This document shows positions 20,348 through 29,412 of a stretch of 64,000 nucleotides of DNA, piece by piece. The notes beneath the pieces were generated by a model. The model saw nothing but the letters and a program-made list of their open reading frames with translations, searched no databases and was not told the DNA's origin. A program made the position numbers and the translations under genes. The stretch is from NCBI GenBank assembly GCA_039944855.1, contig JBDUXZ010000011.1, forward strand, positions 1 through 64,000. The letters are read 5' to 3'. The DNA is from Rhodothermales bacterium. GTDB taxonomy: Bacteria > Bacteroidota > Rhodothermia > Rhodothermales > JANQRZ01. Numbering within the stretch: the stretch's first letter is position 1; each line of letters starts with the position of its first letter.

Positions 20348-23300
20348 TCAGTCCTCCACGCGGACGAGCATCCAGCCGTTGTTGATCTTCGAAACGGCGT
20401 GCTTGTACTTCAGCGTCTCCTCGACCCCGGTGGACGGGTTCATGATCGTCACGCGGTCGTTGCGGCCGGGCTCTTTCTCGACGACGACGGGCTCGGCGGC
20501 CACCGTTGGGTCGCGCTCGGCGGAGGAGCCGTTGCCGCCGGTGTTGACACCGTAGCTCTGCTTCTCCTCCTTCTGCGCCTGCGCCCGGCTGCGGTCGAGG
20601 CGGGACTTCGGCGCGGCGGTCTGGGTCTGCACGCGCTTGCCGTCGACGAGCGGGCCAGCTTTGAAGACGAGGGAGACGGCCTCCTGCTGGATCTCCTGCA
20701 TCATCTCGGCGAAGAGCTTGTACGCCTCCATCTTGTACTCGATGAGCGGGTCCTTCTGCCCGTAGGCGCGGAGCCCGATGCCCTCCTTCACCTCGTCGAG
20801 GTCGCGGAGGTGCTCGGTCCACCGGCTGTCGATCGTCGAGAGCACGGCGGCGCGTTCGAGCCCGTCGTTCACCTCCTGCCCGTTCGTCGCCACCACGTCT
20901 TCGGGGCGGACGACGACGCGCATCATCTTGCGACCGTCGGTGAAGTCGACGAACAGCCGCTCGGGCTTCTTCTCGTCGTCGGGGCGGTTGACGATCTCCT
21001 GGATCGAGTTGAAGAACGGGCGAGCGAGCGACTCGCGCTTGCGGTTGTAGTGGGCGAGCGCGGCGTCGTAGACGGCCTCGATCATCCCGTCCTCGCCGAG
21101 CCCGAACGCCTTCTGCCGGTCCATCTCGAAGTCGAACGCGAGCGTCCGCATCAGCTCCTCGCGGAGCCCGTCGAGGTCGCCGTCGCCGAAGTGGGCGTGG
21201 ACGAGGCGCTCGACGACCTGGTAGAGCATGTCGAGGATGTCCGAGTGCAGCCGGTCGCCGAGGAGGGCGTGGAGGCGCTGGTCGTAGATGACGGTGCGCT
21301 GCGCGTTGAGCACGTCGTCGTAGTCGAGCTGGCGCTTGCGGATGGCGAAGTTGTTCTGCTCGACCTTCTTCTGCGCGCGCTCGATGCCCTTCGTGATCCA
21401 CTTGTGGGTGATCACCTCGCCCTCTTCCATCCCGAGCTTGTCCATGATCTTCGCCGTCCGGTCGTGGCCGAAGAGGCGCATCAGGTCGTCTTCGAGCGAG
21501 ACGTAGAACACCGACTCGCCGGGGTCGCCCTGGCGGCCGGACCGGCCGCGGAGCTGGAGGTCGATCCGGCGCGACTCGTGGCGCTCGGTGCCGAGGATCG
21601 CGAGGCCGCCCTTGTCTTTGACGGCGTCCTTGATCTTGATGTCGGTCCCGCGCCCGGCCATGTTCGTCGCGATCGTGACGGCGCCTTCGCGGCCCGCCTC
21701 GGCGACGATCTGGGCCTCGCTCTTGGCGCGGTCCTTCCGCGCGTTGAGCACGTTGTGCGGGATGTTCTGCCGCTTGAGCATCCGCGCGAGCGTCTCCGAC
21801 ACGTCGACGCTCGTGGTGCCGACGAGTACGGGCTGGCCGGCCTCGTGGTACGCGCGGATTTTGTCGAGGATGGCGTTGTACTTCTCGCGCTTCGTCTTGT
21901 AGACGAGGTCTTCCTCGTCGGCGCGGGCGATCGGGCGGTTCGTCGGGATGATCGAGACTTCCATGTCGTAGATCTTCCCGAACTCCTCGGCCTCGGTCTC
22001 GGCCGTGCCCGTCATGCCGGAGAGCTTGTGGTAGAGGCGGAAGTAGTTCTGCAGCGTGATCGTCGCGTACGTCTGCGTCGCCTTCTGGACCTGCACCTGC
22101 TCCTTCGCTTCGATGGCCTGGTGGAGCCCGTCGGAGTAGCGGCGGCCCGGCAGCACACGGCCCGTGTGCTGGTCGACGATCTGCACCTTCTCGTCCTGGA
22201 CGATGTACTCGACGTCCTTCTCGTAGAGCGTGTACGCCTTGAGGAGTTGGTTGACGGCGTGGATGTGCTCGGAGCGCTCGGCGAAGCGGGTGTAGAGGTC
22301 ACGCTTGGCGGCCTCCATCTCGTTGGCGAGCACGCGGAGGTCGTTGTCGAGCTTGTGCTGGCGCTTCTCGTCGGAGAGCGAGGCGTCGGCTTTGAGTTCG
22401 GCGCGGAGGTCCTCCTTCTTCTGCTCGAACTCCTTCTCGATGCGAGCGATCTCGTAGCCCACGTCGGGGATGATGAAGAACTCGATGTCCGAGCCTGCGG
22501 CTTTCGCGATGAACTCGCGGCCCTGGTCCGTCAGCTCGAGCGAGTGCTGCTTCTCGTCGAGGGCGAAGTGGAGCACCTCGTCCACCTCGGGCATCCGCTT
22601 GGCGTTGTCCTGGAGGTAGAAGAACTCGGTCTTGCGGAGGAGCTGGTCGACACCGGGCTCTCCCTTGAGCTTGATGAGCCGCTTGTTCTTCGGGTAGCCG
22701 CGCTCGGCGCGGAGAAGGGCGAGGCCGGCCTCGTCTTCGAGCCGGCGCGCCTCCTTCTTGTCGCCCGCCGCTTCGGCCGCGGCCTGCTCCTTGAGCAGCC
22801 GCTCCGCATCGCCGACGAGGCCGGCGACGAGCTTCTGCTGGGCATAGACGAGCCGGTCCACGGGGGGCCGCAGTTCCTCGAAGCGGTCCTCCTCGGCGTC
22901 CGGCACGGGGCCGGAGATGATGAGCGGCGTTCGCGCCTCGTCGATGAGCACGGAGTCCACCTCGTCCACGATCGCGTAGTGGTGGCGGCGCTGGACGAGT
23001 TGGTTGGCGTCGACGACGAACGAGTTGTCGCGGAGGTAGTCGAACCCGAACTCGTTGTTGGTGCCGTACGTGATGTCGGCGCGGTACGCCTGGCGGCGGC
23101 CGGCCGAGTGCGGCTCGTGTCCGTCGATGCAATCGACGGTCAGGCCGAGGTATTCGTAGATCGGCCCCATCCACTGCGCGTCGCGCTGGGCGAGGTACGG
23201 GTTGACCGTGACGAGGTGGACGCCGCGCCCGACGAGCGCGTTGAGGTACATCGGGGCGACGGACGTGAGCGTCTTACCCTCGCCCGTTTTCATCTCGGCC

Positions 23301-23812
23301 ACGCGCCCGCGGTGGAGCACGATGCCGCCGATGAGTTGCACGTCGAACGGCACCATCTCCCACGTGATCTCGCTGCCGCCCGCTTCCCACGTCTTCCCGA
23401 GGTGGCGGCGACAGACCTCCTTCACGACGGCGAACGCTTCGGGCAGGAGCTCTTCGAGCACGTCCTCGACGGTGTCGAGCCACTCCTGTTCGAGGTCGTC
23501 GAGTTGCTCGACGAGCGTCTGCCGCTCGGCGTGGCTGAGCGTCTCGCCGGCATCGGGAGCCTGCCCGTCCCCGCCGACCGGCTCCTCGTTCGCCGCGCGG
23601 AGGCGGGCGCGGATCTCGGTCCGCTCGCGGTCGAGCTCGGCGACGGCCTCGTTGATGCGGGCCTTGAACTCGGCGGTCTTACCCTTGAGCTCGGCCTCCG
23701 TGAGGTGCTGGAAGCGGTCGGCGTAGTCGTTGATCTCGTCGACGAGCGGCTGGAACTGCGAGATGTCGCGCTTATTCCGTTCGCCGAAGAGTTTCTTGAT
23801 GACGTTCAACAT
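20348..23812 (-). CDS. secA: Preprotein translocase ATPase SecA
   Basis: A 1154-aa motor ATPase that drives proteins through SecYEG. Motifs: Walker A EMKTGEGKTLTSVAP (about residue 175), helicase-like DEVDSVLIDEARTPLII (about 280), GTERHESRRIDLQLRGRSGR and QGDPGES in NBD2. It is about 250 residues longer than E. coli SecA, because of Bacteroidota-type insertions including a long charged block in NBD1 (about residues 310-510, e.g. EFEQKKEDLRAELKADASL). The C terminus lacks the CxCx8C(H) zinc motif and ends instead in a basic domain with VTIMNPSTGVEETLKYKHAV. The start follows a C/T-rich leader. Confidence 0.96.
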   Translation of the reverse strand: MLNVIKKLFGERNKRDISQFQPLVDEINDYADRFQHLTEAELKGKTAEFKARINEAVAELDRERTEIRARLRAANEEPVGGDGQAPDAGETLSHAERQTLVEQLDDLEQEWLDTVEDVLEELLPEAFAVVKEVCRRHLGKTWEAGGSEITWEMVPFDVQLIGGIVLHRGRVAEMKTGEGKTLTSVAPMYLNALVGRGVHLVTVNPYLAQRDAQWMGPIYEYLGLTVDCIDGHEPHSAGRRQAYRADITYGTNNEFGFDYLRDNSFVVDANQLVQRRHHYAIVDEVDSVLIDEARTPLIISGPVPDAEEDRFEELRPPVDRLVYAQQKLVAGLVGDAERLLKEQAAAEAAGDKKEARRLEDEAGLALLRAERGYPKNKRLIKLKGEPGVDQLLRKTEFFYLQDNAKRMPEVDEVLHFALDEKQHSLELTDQGREFIAKAAGSDIEFFIIPDVGYEIARIEKEFEQKKEDLRAELKADASLSDEKRQHKLDNDLRVLANEMEAAKRDLYTRFAERSEHIHAVNQLLKAYTLYEKDVEYIVQDEKVQIVDQHTGRVLPGRRYSDGLHQAIEAKEQVQVQKATQTYATITLQNYFRLYHKLSGMTGTAETEAEEFGKIYDMEVSIIPTNRPIARADEEDLVYKTKREKYNAILDKIRAYHEAGQPVLVGTTSVDVSETLARMLKRQNIPHNVLNARKDRAKSEAQIVAEAGREGAVTIATNMAGRGTDIKIKDAVKDKGGLAILGTERHESRRIDLQLRGRSGRQGDPGESVFYVSLEDDLMRLFGHDRTAKIMDKLGMEEGEVITHKWITKGIERAQKKVEQNNFAIRKRQLDYDDVLNAQRTVIYDQRLHALLGDRLHSDILDMLYQVVERLVHAHFGDGDLDGLREELMRTLAFDFEMDRQKAFGLGEDGMIEAVYDAALAHYNRKRESLARPFFNSIQEIVNRPDDEKKPERLFVDFTDGRKMMRVVVRPEDVVATNGQEVNDGLERAAVLSTIDSRWTEHLRDLDEVKEGIGLRAYGQKDPLIEYKMEAYKLFAEMMQEIQQEAVSLVFKAGPLVDGKRVQTQTAAPKSRLDRSRAQAQKEEKQSYGVNTGGNGSSAERDPTVAAEPVVVEKEPGRNDRVTIMNPSTGVEETLKYKHAVSKINNGWMLVRVED

Positions 23813-24239
23813 GGGACGTAGGGAATGGGGTCTACTTCAAAAGTCGTGGCCGCGGGGCAGGGCGCGGGGCCGAGCGTTCGGACGATACAACGTGGTGGGG
23901 CGGCAGGGCCATGCGGCGCGCGCGATTCTTCGAAAGCGGACAGCGCGGGCGCCGGCGGGTCCGTACGCGGGCGACGGTGCGGGATTTTTGCACGGGAGGC
24001 CCGCTCACGGGCATCGTACCTTATACTTTCGGGCTATCGGCCAATCCGGCAGCAAACTACAACGGAGGACACCGCCTATCGGCTCTGGATACTACGCGCA
24101 GCGTGCTCGCAAACGTGATGCCGATGCGTCAGCCGTGCTCTCACGCGAGGTGCCAACGCGCGTTCCCGCCCGCTACGCGTTTCCTCCCGTTCTTTACGGC
24201 GGTTTCCCTGCCTCCCGTCCTCCCTGCCGATTTGTCTTC
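23813..24239. other. Divergent intergenic region between secA and porQ
   Basis: About 430 bp without a supportable gene; frames reading into porQ from upstream look non-coding. It must hold the promoters of both divergent genes. A TACTTTCG motif at 24024-24031 and a run GATTTTTG at 23982-23989 are the only promoter-like sites I noticed. Confidence 0.5.
24024..24031 (+). promoter_or_regulatory. TAnnTTYG promoter motif upstream of porQ
   Basis: TACTTTCG, within CTTATACTTTCGGG, 209 bp before the porQ ATG. An identical octamer stands upstream of the gene at 38662. Confidence 0.3.
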
Positions 24240-25202
24240 ATGCTGCGCTCCCTGCTCCTCACCGCCCTCGTCGTCCTGCCCACGCTCGCGAGCGCTCAGC
24301 CGAGCCGACTGACCGGATTCGGCTTGCTCCGGCTCGAACCCTCGGCCCGCGCGACGGCCCTCGCTGGGGCCTACGGCGTCGGCTCGGGCGAAGACGTGAA
24401 CGCCCTCTTCGCCAACCCCGCCCTTCTCGGCGAGGCCGACCACGGGCAGCTCGCGGTGAGCTACCTCAACCACCTCTCGGACATCAGCGCCGGATTCGTG
24501 GTCTACGCCCGCCACGTCGAGCGCCTCGGCGGCACCGTCGCCGGGTCCGTCCGCTTCCTCTCCTACGGCGACTTCGAGCGCGCCGACGCCGACGGCACCC
24601 GCTCCGGCGACACGTTCGGCGCCTCCGACGCGATCGTCACGCTGAGCTACGCCCGGCCTGCCGGCGACCGCCTCCACGTCGGCGGCAGCGCCCACGCCGT
24701 GTTCTCCTCCGTCGACGACGCGAGCGCGAACGCCCTCGCCGCCGATTTTGGCGTGACGTACCAGATCCCCGCGCAGGGCCTCGCGCTCAGCGCCTCGCTC
24801 CACAACCTCGGCGTGGTCACGAGCGACCTCGGGGCGGAGGGCGACGAACTCCCCACGGACCTCCGCTTCGCGGTGTCGAAGCGCCTGCAGTATGTCCCGC
24901 TCCTCATCACTGTCGCAGGCTACGACCTGACCTCGTTCGAGAGCGAGAACGGGACGGCGCTCAACGAGATCGCCCGCCACCTCTCGATCGGCGGCGAGTT
25001 GCAATTCGGCGAGGCGTTCGCCCTCCGCGCGGGCTACAACCACCGGCTCCACGAGGAGCTCAAGACCGGGACGCGGATCGACCTCGCCGGGCTCGGCCTC
25101 GGCTTCGGGCTGAACCTCCGCCGCTTCGGGTTCGACTACGCCTACAACGCGTGGAGCTCGTTCGGCGGCCTCCACCACATCACGCTCCGCACCCGGATCT
25201 GA
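24240..25202 (+). CDS. porQ: Type IX secretion system protein PorQ
   Basis: A 320-aa outer-membrane beta-barrel protein of the PorV/PorQ (FadL-like) superfamily. Signal peptide residues 1-19 (LASAQ). The family hallmark FGLLRLEPSARATALAGAYG followed by NALFANPALLG marks PorQ/PorV; the remaining sequence is alternating amphipathic strands ending in an aromatic/basic C terminus. In T9SS, PorQ works with PorZ at the attachment complex that handles sorted cargo, fitting the T9SS-tailed proteins at 14591 and 49710. The start follows a C/T-rich leader; two paralogous lipoprotein genes follow. Confidence 0.88.
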   Translation: MLRSLLLTALVVLPTLASAQPSRLTGFGLLRLEPSARATALAGAYGVGSGEDVNALFANPALLGEADHGQLAVSYLNHLSDISAGFVVYARHVERLGGTVAGSVRFLSYGDFERADADGTRSGDTFGASDAIVTLSYARPAGDRLHVGGSAHAVFSSVDDASANALAADFGVTYQIPAQGLALSASLHNLGVVTSDLGAEGDELPTDLRFAVSKRLQYVPLLITVAGYDLTSFESENGTALNEIARHLSIGGELQFGEAFALRAGYNHRLHEELKTGTRIDLAGLGLGFGLNLRRFGFDYAYNAWSSFGGLHHITLRTRI

Positions 25203-26319: not shown

Positions 26320-27264
26320 TCACGCGCGGTCTTCGATGCTGCGCTTGAGGAGGCCCTGCTTCTTGAAGTAGATCATCGTCGTGTCGAGCGTGCCGTGGCG
26401 CATCCGTTGGCGGACCTCCTCGACGCCCATCCCGTCGTTGAGCCAGATGAGCGCGGCGGTGTGCGTCAGCGAGTGCGGCGAGACGCCGGGACGCTTGAGC
26501 CCGGCCGCCTTCAGCAGCCCGTTGATCCGGCTGCGGACGCTCCGCGTGTTGAGCCGCTCCCCCGCCGAGCGGTGCCCGTGCGAGACGAAGAGCGGGTCCT
26601 CGGGCCGGACGCGCCCGCGCGTGTCGAGGTAGAGCCGGATCGCGTCCATCACCGGCGGGTCGATGGGGACCTGCTGGTCTTTGACGGTGTGGCCCTTGCC
26701 CTGCACGCGGAGGAACCACCCGAGGAGGGTCTGGTCGAGGTCCTGCATATCGGCACGGACGAGTTCGATCTCGCTCAGCCCGGCGTAGAGCATGAGGTAG
26801 ACGATCGCCCGGTCGCGCTTCTCGATGGGGCTCGCGGTGCGGAGCACGTCTTTGAGCTGCTCCACCTCCTCTTCGGTGAACACCTTGCGCGAGTGCTCGC
26901 TCGGGCGGCGGTTGCCCTTGACCGGCCGCGCCGGGTTCTCCTCCAGCAGCCCGATGTCGACGAGGTACTGGCAGAATCGACGGATTGCCGTGAGGTACGT
27001 CGAGACCGAGACCTGGCTCAGTTCACGCTCCTCCATCAAATATTTCTTGTACCGCTCCACGTCTTCCGTGCGGAAGCGGAACCCTCCAGAGGGGGAACGG
27101 CCCCGCTCGACGGCGTGCCACCGCTCGAACTCGTTGAGCGAGCGCCGGTACGTGCCGACGGTCTCTTTGCTCTTCCCCTTGAGGTACTCGCTCACGAACC
27201 CCTCGAGGCGCGATTCGAGTTCGGCAGCGGAGAGGACGAGGGGCGGGCCGGCGGCGTCGGGCAT
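26320..27264 (-). CDS. Tyrosine-recombinase-like protein lacking both catalytic arginines
   Basis: A 314-aa protein with a SAM-like N-terminal core-binding domain (about residues 20-105) and a C-terminal phage-integrase fold (about 125-305). Aligning by eye to the family, box I normally 'TGLR..E' reads YAGLSEIELVRADM, with Ser at the catalytic Arg position; box II normally 'HxLRHT' reads PHSLTHTAAL, with Thr at the second Arg. The Lys-bearing GKG turn (VQGKGHTVKD), the HG of MRHGTLDTTMIYF and the Tyr nucleophile are kept. With both arginines absent, DNA cleavage should be severely impaired, suggesting a DNA-binding, regulatory or partner-dependent role. A 49-bp palindrome lies just upstream. 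No other phage genes are near. Confidence 0.85.
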   Translation of the reverse strand: MPDAAGPPLVLSAAELESRLEGFVSEYLKGKSKETVGTYRRSLNEFERWHAVERGRSPSGGFRFRTEDVERYKKYLMEERELSQVSVSTYLTAIRRFCQYLVDIGLLEENPARPVKGNRRPSEHSRKVFTEEEVEQLKDVLRTASPIEKRDRAIVYLMLYAGLSEIELVRADMQDLDQTLLGWFLRVQGKGHTVKDQQVPIDPPVMDAIRLYLDTRGRVRPEDPLFVSHGHRSAGERLNTRSVRSRINGLLKAAGLKRPGVSPHSLTHTAALIWLNDGMGVEEVRQRMRHGTLDTTMIYFKKQGLLKRSIEDRA

Positions 27265-27321
27265 GGAGATAACGGCTATTGGAAGCCGCAATCTACGGGC
27301 TTCCGCCCTCTCAAAACGCAA

Positions 27322-27394: not shown

Positions 27395-29230
27395 TCAGAT
27401 CGCCTCGTTCGGGTCGATGCTCTCCAGCGCGTCTTTGTAGGCTTGCAGGTAGCTCGCGCCCATCGAGCCGTCAATGATGCGGTGGTCGTAGGTCAGCGAG
27501 ACGTACATCATCTGCCGGATCGCGATGATGTCGCCGAGTTCGGGGTGCTCGACCACGACGGGGCGCTTCTTGATCGCGCCGGGCGACAGGATCGCCACCT
27601 GCGGCTGGTTGATGATCGGCGTGCCCATCAGCGAGCCGAGGCTGCCGACGTTCGTCACGGTGAACGTGCCGCCCTGCAGTTCGTCGGGCATGAGCTGCTT
27701 GTTCCGCGCCCGGTCGGCGAGATCGGCAATCGCGTGCGTGAGCCCGGTGAGGTTCTTCTGCCCCGCGTCGCGGACGACGGGGACGAGCAGGCCTTTCGTG
27801 CCGATCGCGACGGCGATCCCGATGTGGTAGTCCTTCTTGACGATGATCCGCTTGCCCTCGACGGAGGCGTTGAGCGTGGGGTGCGTGCGCAGCGCCTCGA
27901 CGGCGGCGCGAACGAAGAACGGGGTGAACGTGAGCTTGACGCCCTCACGCTGCTGGAACGCGCGCTTGTTGTTCTCCCGCGCCTTCACGAGGTTCGTCAC
28001 GTCGATCTCGTTGAACGAGGTGACGTGCGCGCTCGTGTCCTTCGACCGGCGCATGTGCTCGGAGATGAGCTGCCGCATCCGGTCCATCTCAATGATCTCG
28101 ACGCGGTCGCCGTAGTCGCCCGAGGGGGGCGGCGCGGCCGGCTTCGCCCCCTGCTTAGGCTGCGCGGCGGGTGCCTGGCGTTGCTGCGGCGCTGCCTGCG
28201 TCTGGGCCGGCGCCGACGTGCGCTGCTTGACGTAGCCGAGGATGTCCTGCTTCGTGACACGCCCTTCCGTCCCCGTGCCCTTGATCGACTCCAGCTCTCG
28301 CTGGGAAACGCCCTCGGCGCTCGCGATCGAGCGAACGAGCGGCGAGTAGAACCGGCCGTCCTCGCCACGTCGCTGCAGCGGGCCCCTCGCGGCGACCTCC
28401 GCTTCGGCGGGCTCAGCGAGGGGCGAGCCGTCGCCGGCGAGGGCGCGGCCCGTCATCCCGTAGCTCTTCTCGGGCGCCGACGGGGTCTCCCCCGCCTCGG
28501 CCGCTGCCGGTTGCTGCTTCGGGGCCGACGGAGCGGGCGACGCGCCGGCAGCCGCTCCGTCGCCCGTCGCAACGATCGCGATCGGCGCGCCGACGTCAAC
28601 CGTCTCGCCTTCCTGCACGAGGATCTCGACGAGGATACCCTTCGCCGGCGACGGCACCTCAGAATCGACTTTGTCGGTGGAGATCTCCAGCAGCGTCTCG
28701 TCAAGCTCGACCTCGTCGCCGACCTGCTTGGCCCACGACAGCACGGTGCCCTCCATCACGCTCTCGCCCATCTTCGGCATGACGACTTCGGTGCGCTCGC
28801 CCCCTCCGCTTGCGACGGGCGGAGCGGCTTCGGCGTTCGCCTGCGCTCCGGCGCCCGTGGCTTCGGCAGCCTCCTCCGCCACCGGTTCGATGTTCGGCGC
28901 GGCGGGCTTCGCTTCCTCCGACACCTCGGGCTCGGCCGCCGCTGCGTCGGGTCCGGCGCTCGAACCATCGCCGCCGACGGGCGCGTCCACGTCCGTCTCG
29001 ATGACGGCGATCTTCGCCCCCACCTCCACGGTCTCGCCCTCGGGGACGATGATTTCTGCGATCCGACCCGCGGCCGGGGACGGCACCTCGGAGTCGACCT
29101 TGTCGGTGGAAATCTCGAGGAGGGTCTCGTCGAGCTCGACCTCGTCGCCGACCTGCTTCGACCACGTCAGCACGGTGCCTTCCATCACGCTCTCGCCCAT
29201 CTTGGGCATGACGACGTCGACTTTAGCCAT
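27395..29230 (-). CDS. Dihydrolipoamide acyltransferase, E2 of a 2-oxoacid dehydrogenase complex
   Basis: A 611-aa E2 protein. Two N-terminal lipoyl domains, each with EISTDKVDSEVP (lipoyl lysines at about 44 and 187), are joined by Ala/Pro/Glu linkers. A peripheral E3/E1-binding domain follows (about 325-365, SPLVRSIASAEGVSQRELES then GTGTEGRVTKQDILGYV). The C-terminal catalytic domain carries the active-site SLTYDHRIIDGSMG with His/Asp. The general form suits a 2-oxoglutarate or branched-chain complex; the sequence alone does not settle which, and no E1 or E3 gene is adjacent. The MAKVDVVMPKMGESV start follows a C/T-rich leader, and a strong hairpin follows the gene. Confidence 0.93.
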   Translation of the reverse strand: MAKVDVVMPKMGESVMEGTVLTWSKQVGDEVELDETLLEISTDKVDSEVPSPAAGRIAEIIVPEGETVEVGAKIAVIETDVDAPVGGDGSSAGPDAAAAEPEVSEEAKPAAPNIEPVAEEAAEATGAGAQANAEAAPPVASGGGERTEVVMPKMGESVMEGTVLSWAKQVGDEVELDETLLEISTDKVDSEVPSPAKGILVEILVQEGETVDVGAPIAIVATGDGAAAGASPAPSAPKQQPAAAEAGETPSAPEKSYGMTGRALAGDGSPLAEPAEAEVAARGPLQRRGEDGRFYSPLVRSIASAEGVSQRELESIKGTGTEGRVTKQDILGYVKQRTSAPAQTQAAPQQRQAPAAQPKQGAKPAAPPPSGDYGDRVEIIEMDRMRQLISEHMRRSKDTSAHVTSFNEIDVTNLVKARENNKRAFQQREGVKLTFTPFFVRAAVEALRTHPTLNASVEGKRIIVKKDYHIGIAVAIGTKGLLVPVVRDAGQKNLTGLTHAIADLADRARNKQLMPDELQGGTFTVTNVGSLGSLMGTPIINQPQVAILSPGAIKKRPVVVEHPELGDIIAIRQMMYVSLTYDHRIIDGSMGASYLQAYKDALESIDPNEAI

Positions 29231-29412
29231 GAGTAATAGGGATGTGTAGGGCGGGGAAAAGAGAAGGCGGAATATACGTCCGCTCGGCGAAGCGCTTCCG
29301 CGGTGGCGTAGCATTGCGAAGGGTGACTCGCCCCTTTTTCACTAACCGTACCTGTCCCCGTTCCAAGGCGGCAGCGAGCTCAGGGATCACGCGCGCACTA
29401 GTCAAACGTAGT

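Follow-up and report, generated by a model that had tools for sequence, protein, structure and literature searches.

The window, a stretch of 64,000 nucleotides from the genome designated G000, contains an open reading frame (ORF) for a Xer-type tyrosine recombinase, which is referred to as the dead Xer below. The following features were assigned at the locus:

26320-27264, minus strand: ORF of the dead Xer-type tyrosine recombinase, 314 aa (Pfam, alignment to solved structures, AlphaFold, Foldseek)
27269-27275, minus strand: operator-like motif CCGTTAT, 5 bp ahead of the ATG; core of CCGTTATTGCAA
27324-27369, no strand: perfect inverted repeat with 19-bp arms, terminator-like, after the E2 gene and between it and the dead-Xer gene (printed sequence)
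27395-29314, minus strand: dihydrolipoamide acyltransferase (E2), upstream neighbour, conserved in Rhodothermales
23730-25202, plus strand: ORF of an outer-membrane protein, neighbour on the other side, PorV/PorQ-like by eye, syntenic
20351-23836 (ORF, stop to stop), minus strand: SecA, conserved synteny

The terminator-like repeat suggests that the dead-Xer gene has a promoter of its own.

Phage_integrase (E-value 2.4e-21) and SAM-like core-binding domains were detected in the 314-aa protein with Pfam, corresponding to the two-domain Xer type. The same tyrosine recombinase fold, consisting of a core-binding and a catalytic domain, was obtained with AlphaFold (pLDDT 93.8, pTM 0.84; 104 family members supplied), and the top Foldseek matches of the predicted structure were Xer and Cre. 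The best library matches were XerC, XerA, and XerD, with scores below the NCBIfam equivalog cut-offs for XerC (TIGR02224, 132.5 versus 335 bits) and XerD (TIGR02225, 113 versus 329.6 bits). Alignment with XerD (PDB 1a0p), XerA, and other solved structures placed Ser164 (GLSEIE) at the column of the first catalytic arginine (Arg I) and Thr267 (HSLTHT) at that of the second (Arg II), as had been claimed in the sequence-only reading, which gave no strand for the gene (minus). K190, H264, H290, and Y299 were found at the expected catalytic columns, and the protein reads SKHTHY instead of the R-K-H-R-H-Y of active Xer recombinases. Chain 14 of PDB entry 9i5v, labelled RaiA and comprising 401 residues, was observed to match Xer recombinases over positions 18-279, which points to a fusion or a naming error. 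A link to ribosome hibernation, raised by the name of this chain, was rejected because raiA is located elsewhere in the window's own genome.

Orthologues of the dead Xer were detected in 39 of 40 relatives, with one gene per genome, and in 94 of 196 genomes of the class, comprising 92 of 98 Rhodothermales and two genomes from another family (families carry the anonymous labels f1 to f15). In a survey of the phylum, distant orthologues were present in 81 of 395 genomes. Within the Rhodothermales, the neighbourhood is fixed: one flank holds prs, rplY, pth, hppA, and the E2 gene, the opposite flank the outer-membrane protein gene, secA, and recN (names by eye from translations). Conservation of the substitutions at one location across the order, which had been proposed as a check, was thereby borne out. 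A functional link through the E2 or SecA neighbours was rejected, since the synteny is restricted to the Rhodothermales and differs in other classes.

Both arginines were present in none of the 131 distinct family members; the residues RKHRHY were found in all 49 active comparators (30 canonical Xer and 19 other recombinases). Most Rhodothermales members read SKHTHY, eight members carry Ser in place of Tyr (SKHTHS among the column states), another large branch shows SKFRIY, and Chlorobiales members show RKHQHY or SKHRHY. In family f15, nearly all catalytic residues are gone (e.g. SKQTPD, NAGRPF) at an unchanged gene position. As the same substitutions occur in dozens of independent genomes, they do not represent a sequencing or frame error. 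The dN/dS ratio was approximately 0.12-0.26 where measurable and 0.12 for one pair of the fully eroded type, and an eroded-type protein was still modelled as a confident fold (pLDDT 89.7). The occurrence in nearly all relatives and the purifying selection contradict the alternative that the substitutions are unique to a decaying gene. Judged by these comparisons, the family is a conserved pseudoenzyme and not a dying gene.

Near-invariant columns of the family comprise Y39, R41, Y90, T92, and R95 in the core-binding helices, R241 and R244 in one helix, and K190, R287, and R289. These regions match the DNA-contacting regions of the tyrosine recombinase fold. The earlier suggestion that the protein probably binds DNA without cutting it was supported. 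The tail past the Tyr column ranges from 2 to 37 residues (median 13), and that of canonical Xer recombinases is almost constant at 19. In Xer proteins, this tail holds the helix swapped between subunits in the tetramer; its variable length therefore makes a canonical tetramer look less likely for the dead Xer.

It is highly improbable that the dead Xer is still a recombinase, rescued by Arg287 and Arg289 or by a partner, even though the lysine, both histidines, and the tyrosine are kept in most Rhodothermales members and the two arginines are nearly invariant. IntDOT, the integrase of CTnDOT, works with Ser at Arg I, a replacement also found in the dead Xer. However, IntDOT is active on a mobile element and keeps Arg II, whereas the dead Xer is chromosomal and has lost both arginines, with Thr267 at Arg II. 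Arg287 and Arg289 (RMRH) lie off both catalytic columns, and the arginine of VRADM, likewise named as a possible substitute, is not conserved across the family. Moreover, several lineages carry Ser in place of Tyr, some have lost the six residues completely or almost completely, and a fixed active partner is lacking, as described below.

In a FastTree phylogeny (midpoint root), the family formed a single deep clade apart from canonical Xer. No viral relative was found in one pattern-seeded scan of viral contigs, and a viral origin was rejected after this empty scan. The mobile or viral context and the patchy distribution of mobile-element integrases were not observed, the gene being near-universal and syntenic in the order, and the reported lack of phage genes around it was upheld. 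The dead Xer is an ancient Xer-like paralogue of vertical inheritance. Its earlier description as a domesticated chromosomal protein requires amendment in this respect, as the gene is not a recent capture.

Canonical XerC and XerD were missing from the Rhodothermales, with a best XerD-model score of 188 bits against the cut-off of 329.6 (18 genomes within G000-G039). This cut-off was exceeded in 18 of 18 sampled genomes outside the order, where the dead Xer coexists with canonical XerC and XerD. In place of these, many Rhodothermales carry an intact single Xer, designated X2, and some another one, designated X3. A search for a second, active recombinase, as had been recommended, yielded an intact X2 on contig C5 of the window's own genome. 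Nine further ORFs of the phage integrase family were noted in this genome (contigs C3, C5, C8, C22, C30, C37, and C38), of which five or more carry the complete catalytic set of six. X2 is missing from G006, G083, G030, and G010, all of which keep the promoter motif described below. Obligate pairing with one active partner was rejected because many dead-Xer genomes are devoid of X2. Retention of the dead Xer does not depend on which active Xer a genome carries, which indicates that the protein has no fixed partner; the proposed action together with another subunit was not supported.

The half-sites of Escherichia coli dif are 11 bp long, each with TTAT at its inner end. Dif-like palindromes of 11 bp - 6 bp - 11 bp with the inner ends ATAA/TTAT adjoin X2 and X3, in the 11-6-11 layout of dif (PMC5357621). 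In the majority of the genomes inspected, ATAA-N6-TTAT palindromes were located at most about 1.2 kb from the active Xer. One example is ACTTCCGATAA-GAACTG-TTATCGGAAGT; the palindrome of the window's own genome is AGGTGTGATAA-TAAGGG-TTATCACGGGT. The arm symmetry of these sites reached 11/11 (L422 at G000:C5:38575, L397, L438, L426, L439, L435, and L430). A recombinase gene adjoining dif is a hallmark of the single-recombinase systems XerS/difSL and XerH/difH (PMC5357621), and this likeness concerns X2 and X3, not the dead Xer.

The conserved motif ahead of the dead-Xer gene begins with CCGTTATTG. Its core CCGTTAT was present upstream of the gene in sense orientation in 72 of 80 Rhodothermales outside f15, compared to 1/80 for the reverse complement and 2/80 for the reversed string. 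In f15, it was found upstream of the gene in 0 of 14 genomes. The copy at 27269-27275 is the only one in the 64 kb of the window on both strands. In other genomes, the motif is located up to 230 bp upstream, and this variable distance indicates operator-like behaviour and not a fixed promoter box. A plain -35 promoter box was rejected, as the motif lies close before the ATG in the window, in f12, and at parC. The promoter copy mostly continues with TTGAC (CCGTTATCTCC in the window) and the terminus copy described below with TTGCAA, the core being shared. The named candidate sites are CCGTTATTGCAAT and the promoter site CCGTTATTGAC. Outside the order, TAATTTCTGTTATTG was found upstream of the dead Xer in three members from two families with other neighbours; a related upstream motif was limited to 3 of 34 regions outside the Rhodothermales. 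Among Chlorobi-type, Kapabacteria-type, and f15 members, no common upstream motif was detected beyond chance or close kinship. Across these genomes, the motif tracks the dead-Xer gene and not the neighbouring genes.

Copies were also located at other genes. Among the Rhodothermales families with a retained promoter motif, most carry CCGTTATTG or the variant CTGTTATTG approximately 10-25 bp ahead of parC (L281-L343), and two genomes have one of these shortly ahead of parE (L300, L305). A trio of motifs (+,-,-) recurs at L278 (G008:C49), G009:C1:1033468-1033575, G012:C1:2553429-2553511, and G083:C2:1190998-1191105. In G008, the trio adjoins a gene resembling nrdJ, which encodes a B12-dependent ribonucleotide reductase. 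A DnaA-box-like sequence (TTATCCACA) was noted between the copies at L278. Matches in rpoD of one genus were dismissed as coding sequence, and matches in scpB and E2 were dismissed because they coincide with conserved coding stretches.

A scan of two complete genomes (G009 and G012) with the 9-mer CCGTTATTG revealed a cluster in which the strand of the sites flips exactly at the X2 gene. The surroundings of X2 were then examined in further genomes as a test of the predicted flip, which held in one f12 genome and in the window's own genome. In the latter, the array is composed as follows:

Contig C5, 6558, 19024, 28037, 29216, and 35039, plus strand: array sites
Contig C5, 37601-38566: X2 gene
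Contig C5, 40140, 45618, 48024, and 59618, minus strand: array sites

In five genomes of five families, the window's own included, every one of the 35 YYGTTATTGCA sites is oriented towards the centre (35/35; binomial 3e-11); for the fifth genome of this set (G004), the array was visible in its left half only. The centre is a dif-like site beside the active single Xer, with the two opposed polar clusters flanking it. The terminus consensus reads CCGTTATTGCAA and continues into A-rich DNA. The sign change of the GC skew coincides with the array in G009. YYGTTATTGCA was absent from 300 kb sampled elsewhere in G009 and from the 64-kb window. No terminus array was detected in the stretches read from f5, f14, and f15; f5 and f14 nevertheless keep the promoter motif.

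A considerable share of the array sites is located at gene starts (parE, guaB, ribF, prfB), which makes a transcriptional role possible, and several overlap start codons. The motif might accordingly serve as a conventional transcription element in a regulon located near the terminus, its polarity being derived from gene orientation. This explanation is unlikely. Across the array regions the coding-strand bias is weak, and on the right-hand side in G004 it is even inverted, so that it is insufficient to account for the polarity; several of the sites fall within open frames or in intergenic DNA; the genes bearing sites are functionally unrelated; and the sampled 300 kb of G009 were free of sites.

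Another protein, either X2 or a terminator or regulator, might bind the polar sites, the dead Xer being merely regulated by it and having another role at DNA. The location of X2 precisely in the middle of each array, the copies before parC and parE and in the three-site region by nrdJ, and the f4 and some f13 genomes which keep the dead Xer without the motif are in favour of such a binder. X2 is absent, however, from the four motif-keeping genomes named above. Moreover, the motif follows the dead-Xer gene across neighbourhoods, vanishes in the 14 genomes with an eroded protein, and shares its TTAT core with Xer half-sites. Binding by another protein is thus regarded as rather doubtful, somewhat less so than the regulon.

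The preferred reading, to which a probability of roughly 0.6 was assigned, is that the catalytically dead Xer recognizes half-sites of the Xer type, regulates the gene encoding it, and serves as a marker of the terminus. CCG-TTATTGCAATG would represent a lone asymmetric Xer half-site, its TTAT resembling the inner TTAT of the dif arms. Owing to the asymmetry of the half-site, a bound protein would have a built-in direction. The dead Xer would thus share with XerC and XerD the two-domain fold and TTAT-type half-sites, but differs from them in its score (132 versus 335 bits), the loss of both arginines, and its separate clade. The protein, kept as a sequence-specific DNA-binding protein, would repress its own gene through the promoter copy. 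At the terminus it would serve as a polar landmark, most likely as a barrier which lets forks in and not out. Since the motif also precedes parC and parE (topoisomerase IV), the dead Xer may tie decatenation to the terminus.

Two marks of fork traps are known from tus and rtp, each of which carries a ter site in its own promoter, and from E. coli and relatives, in which dif is located between the innermost ter sites (PMC10331603). Both were seen here, the first as the core motif in 72/80 genomes with copies that differ beyond the core, and the second as the array of 35/35 centre-pointing sites in five families. From this correspondence we infer that the sites are bound by the dead Xer, which would also regulate its own gene and label the terminus. 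Like Tus/Ter of E. coli and RTP/Ter of Bacillus subtilis, the arrangement combines opposed polar clusters around dif with a site in the promoter of the putative DNA-binding protein. In contrast to these systems, the protein has a Xer fold and no homology to either Tus or RTP, the sites differ in sequence, and fork arrest is a prediction.

Fork arrest is considered the leading candidate function of the landmark, and the removal of chromosome-organising motors its main rival. According to the latter, the dead Xer would occupy the array sites and remove SMC complexes or guide FtsK and topoisomerase IV near dif, without arresting forks. For B. subtilis XerD, sequence-specific unloading of SMC at the terminus is cited in PMC12322038, which makes it an example of a Xer fold with a non-recombination role in this region; the sites studied here adjoin dif, and parC and parE carry the motif. 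In B. subtilis, XerD reportedly performs both jobs in one protein, whereas a dedicated paralogue without catalysis would be employed here. By analogy, both the strictly opposed orientation of the sites (35/35) and the presence of a copy in the protein's own promoter appear closer to fork traps than to SMC unloading. The SMC or FtsK role is a possibility of some weight, though clearly behind the preferred reading.

The dead Xer is therefore probably a DNA-binding marker of the terminus region and not an enzyme, as deduced from comparative data. The most far-reaching version is put forward tentatively: a third, independently evolved terminus system, in which a pseudoenzyme binds polar half-sites, blocks outgoing forks, regulates itself, and links topoisomerase IV to the terminus. 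If true, this would be a third independent origin of a polar dif-flanking system, in the Bacteroidota, and a case of a recombinase turned into a chromosome landmark. The tie between the dead Xer and the terminus would also provide a testable reason why an order without XerC and XerD carries a near-universal Xer that does not cut.
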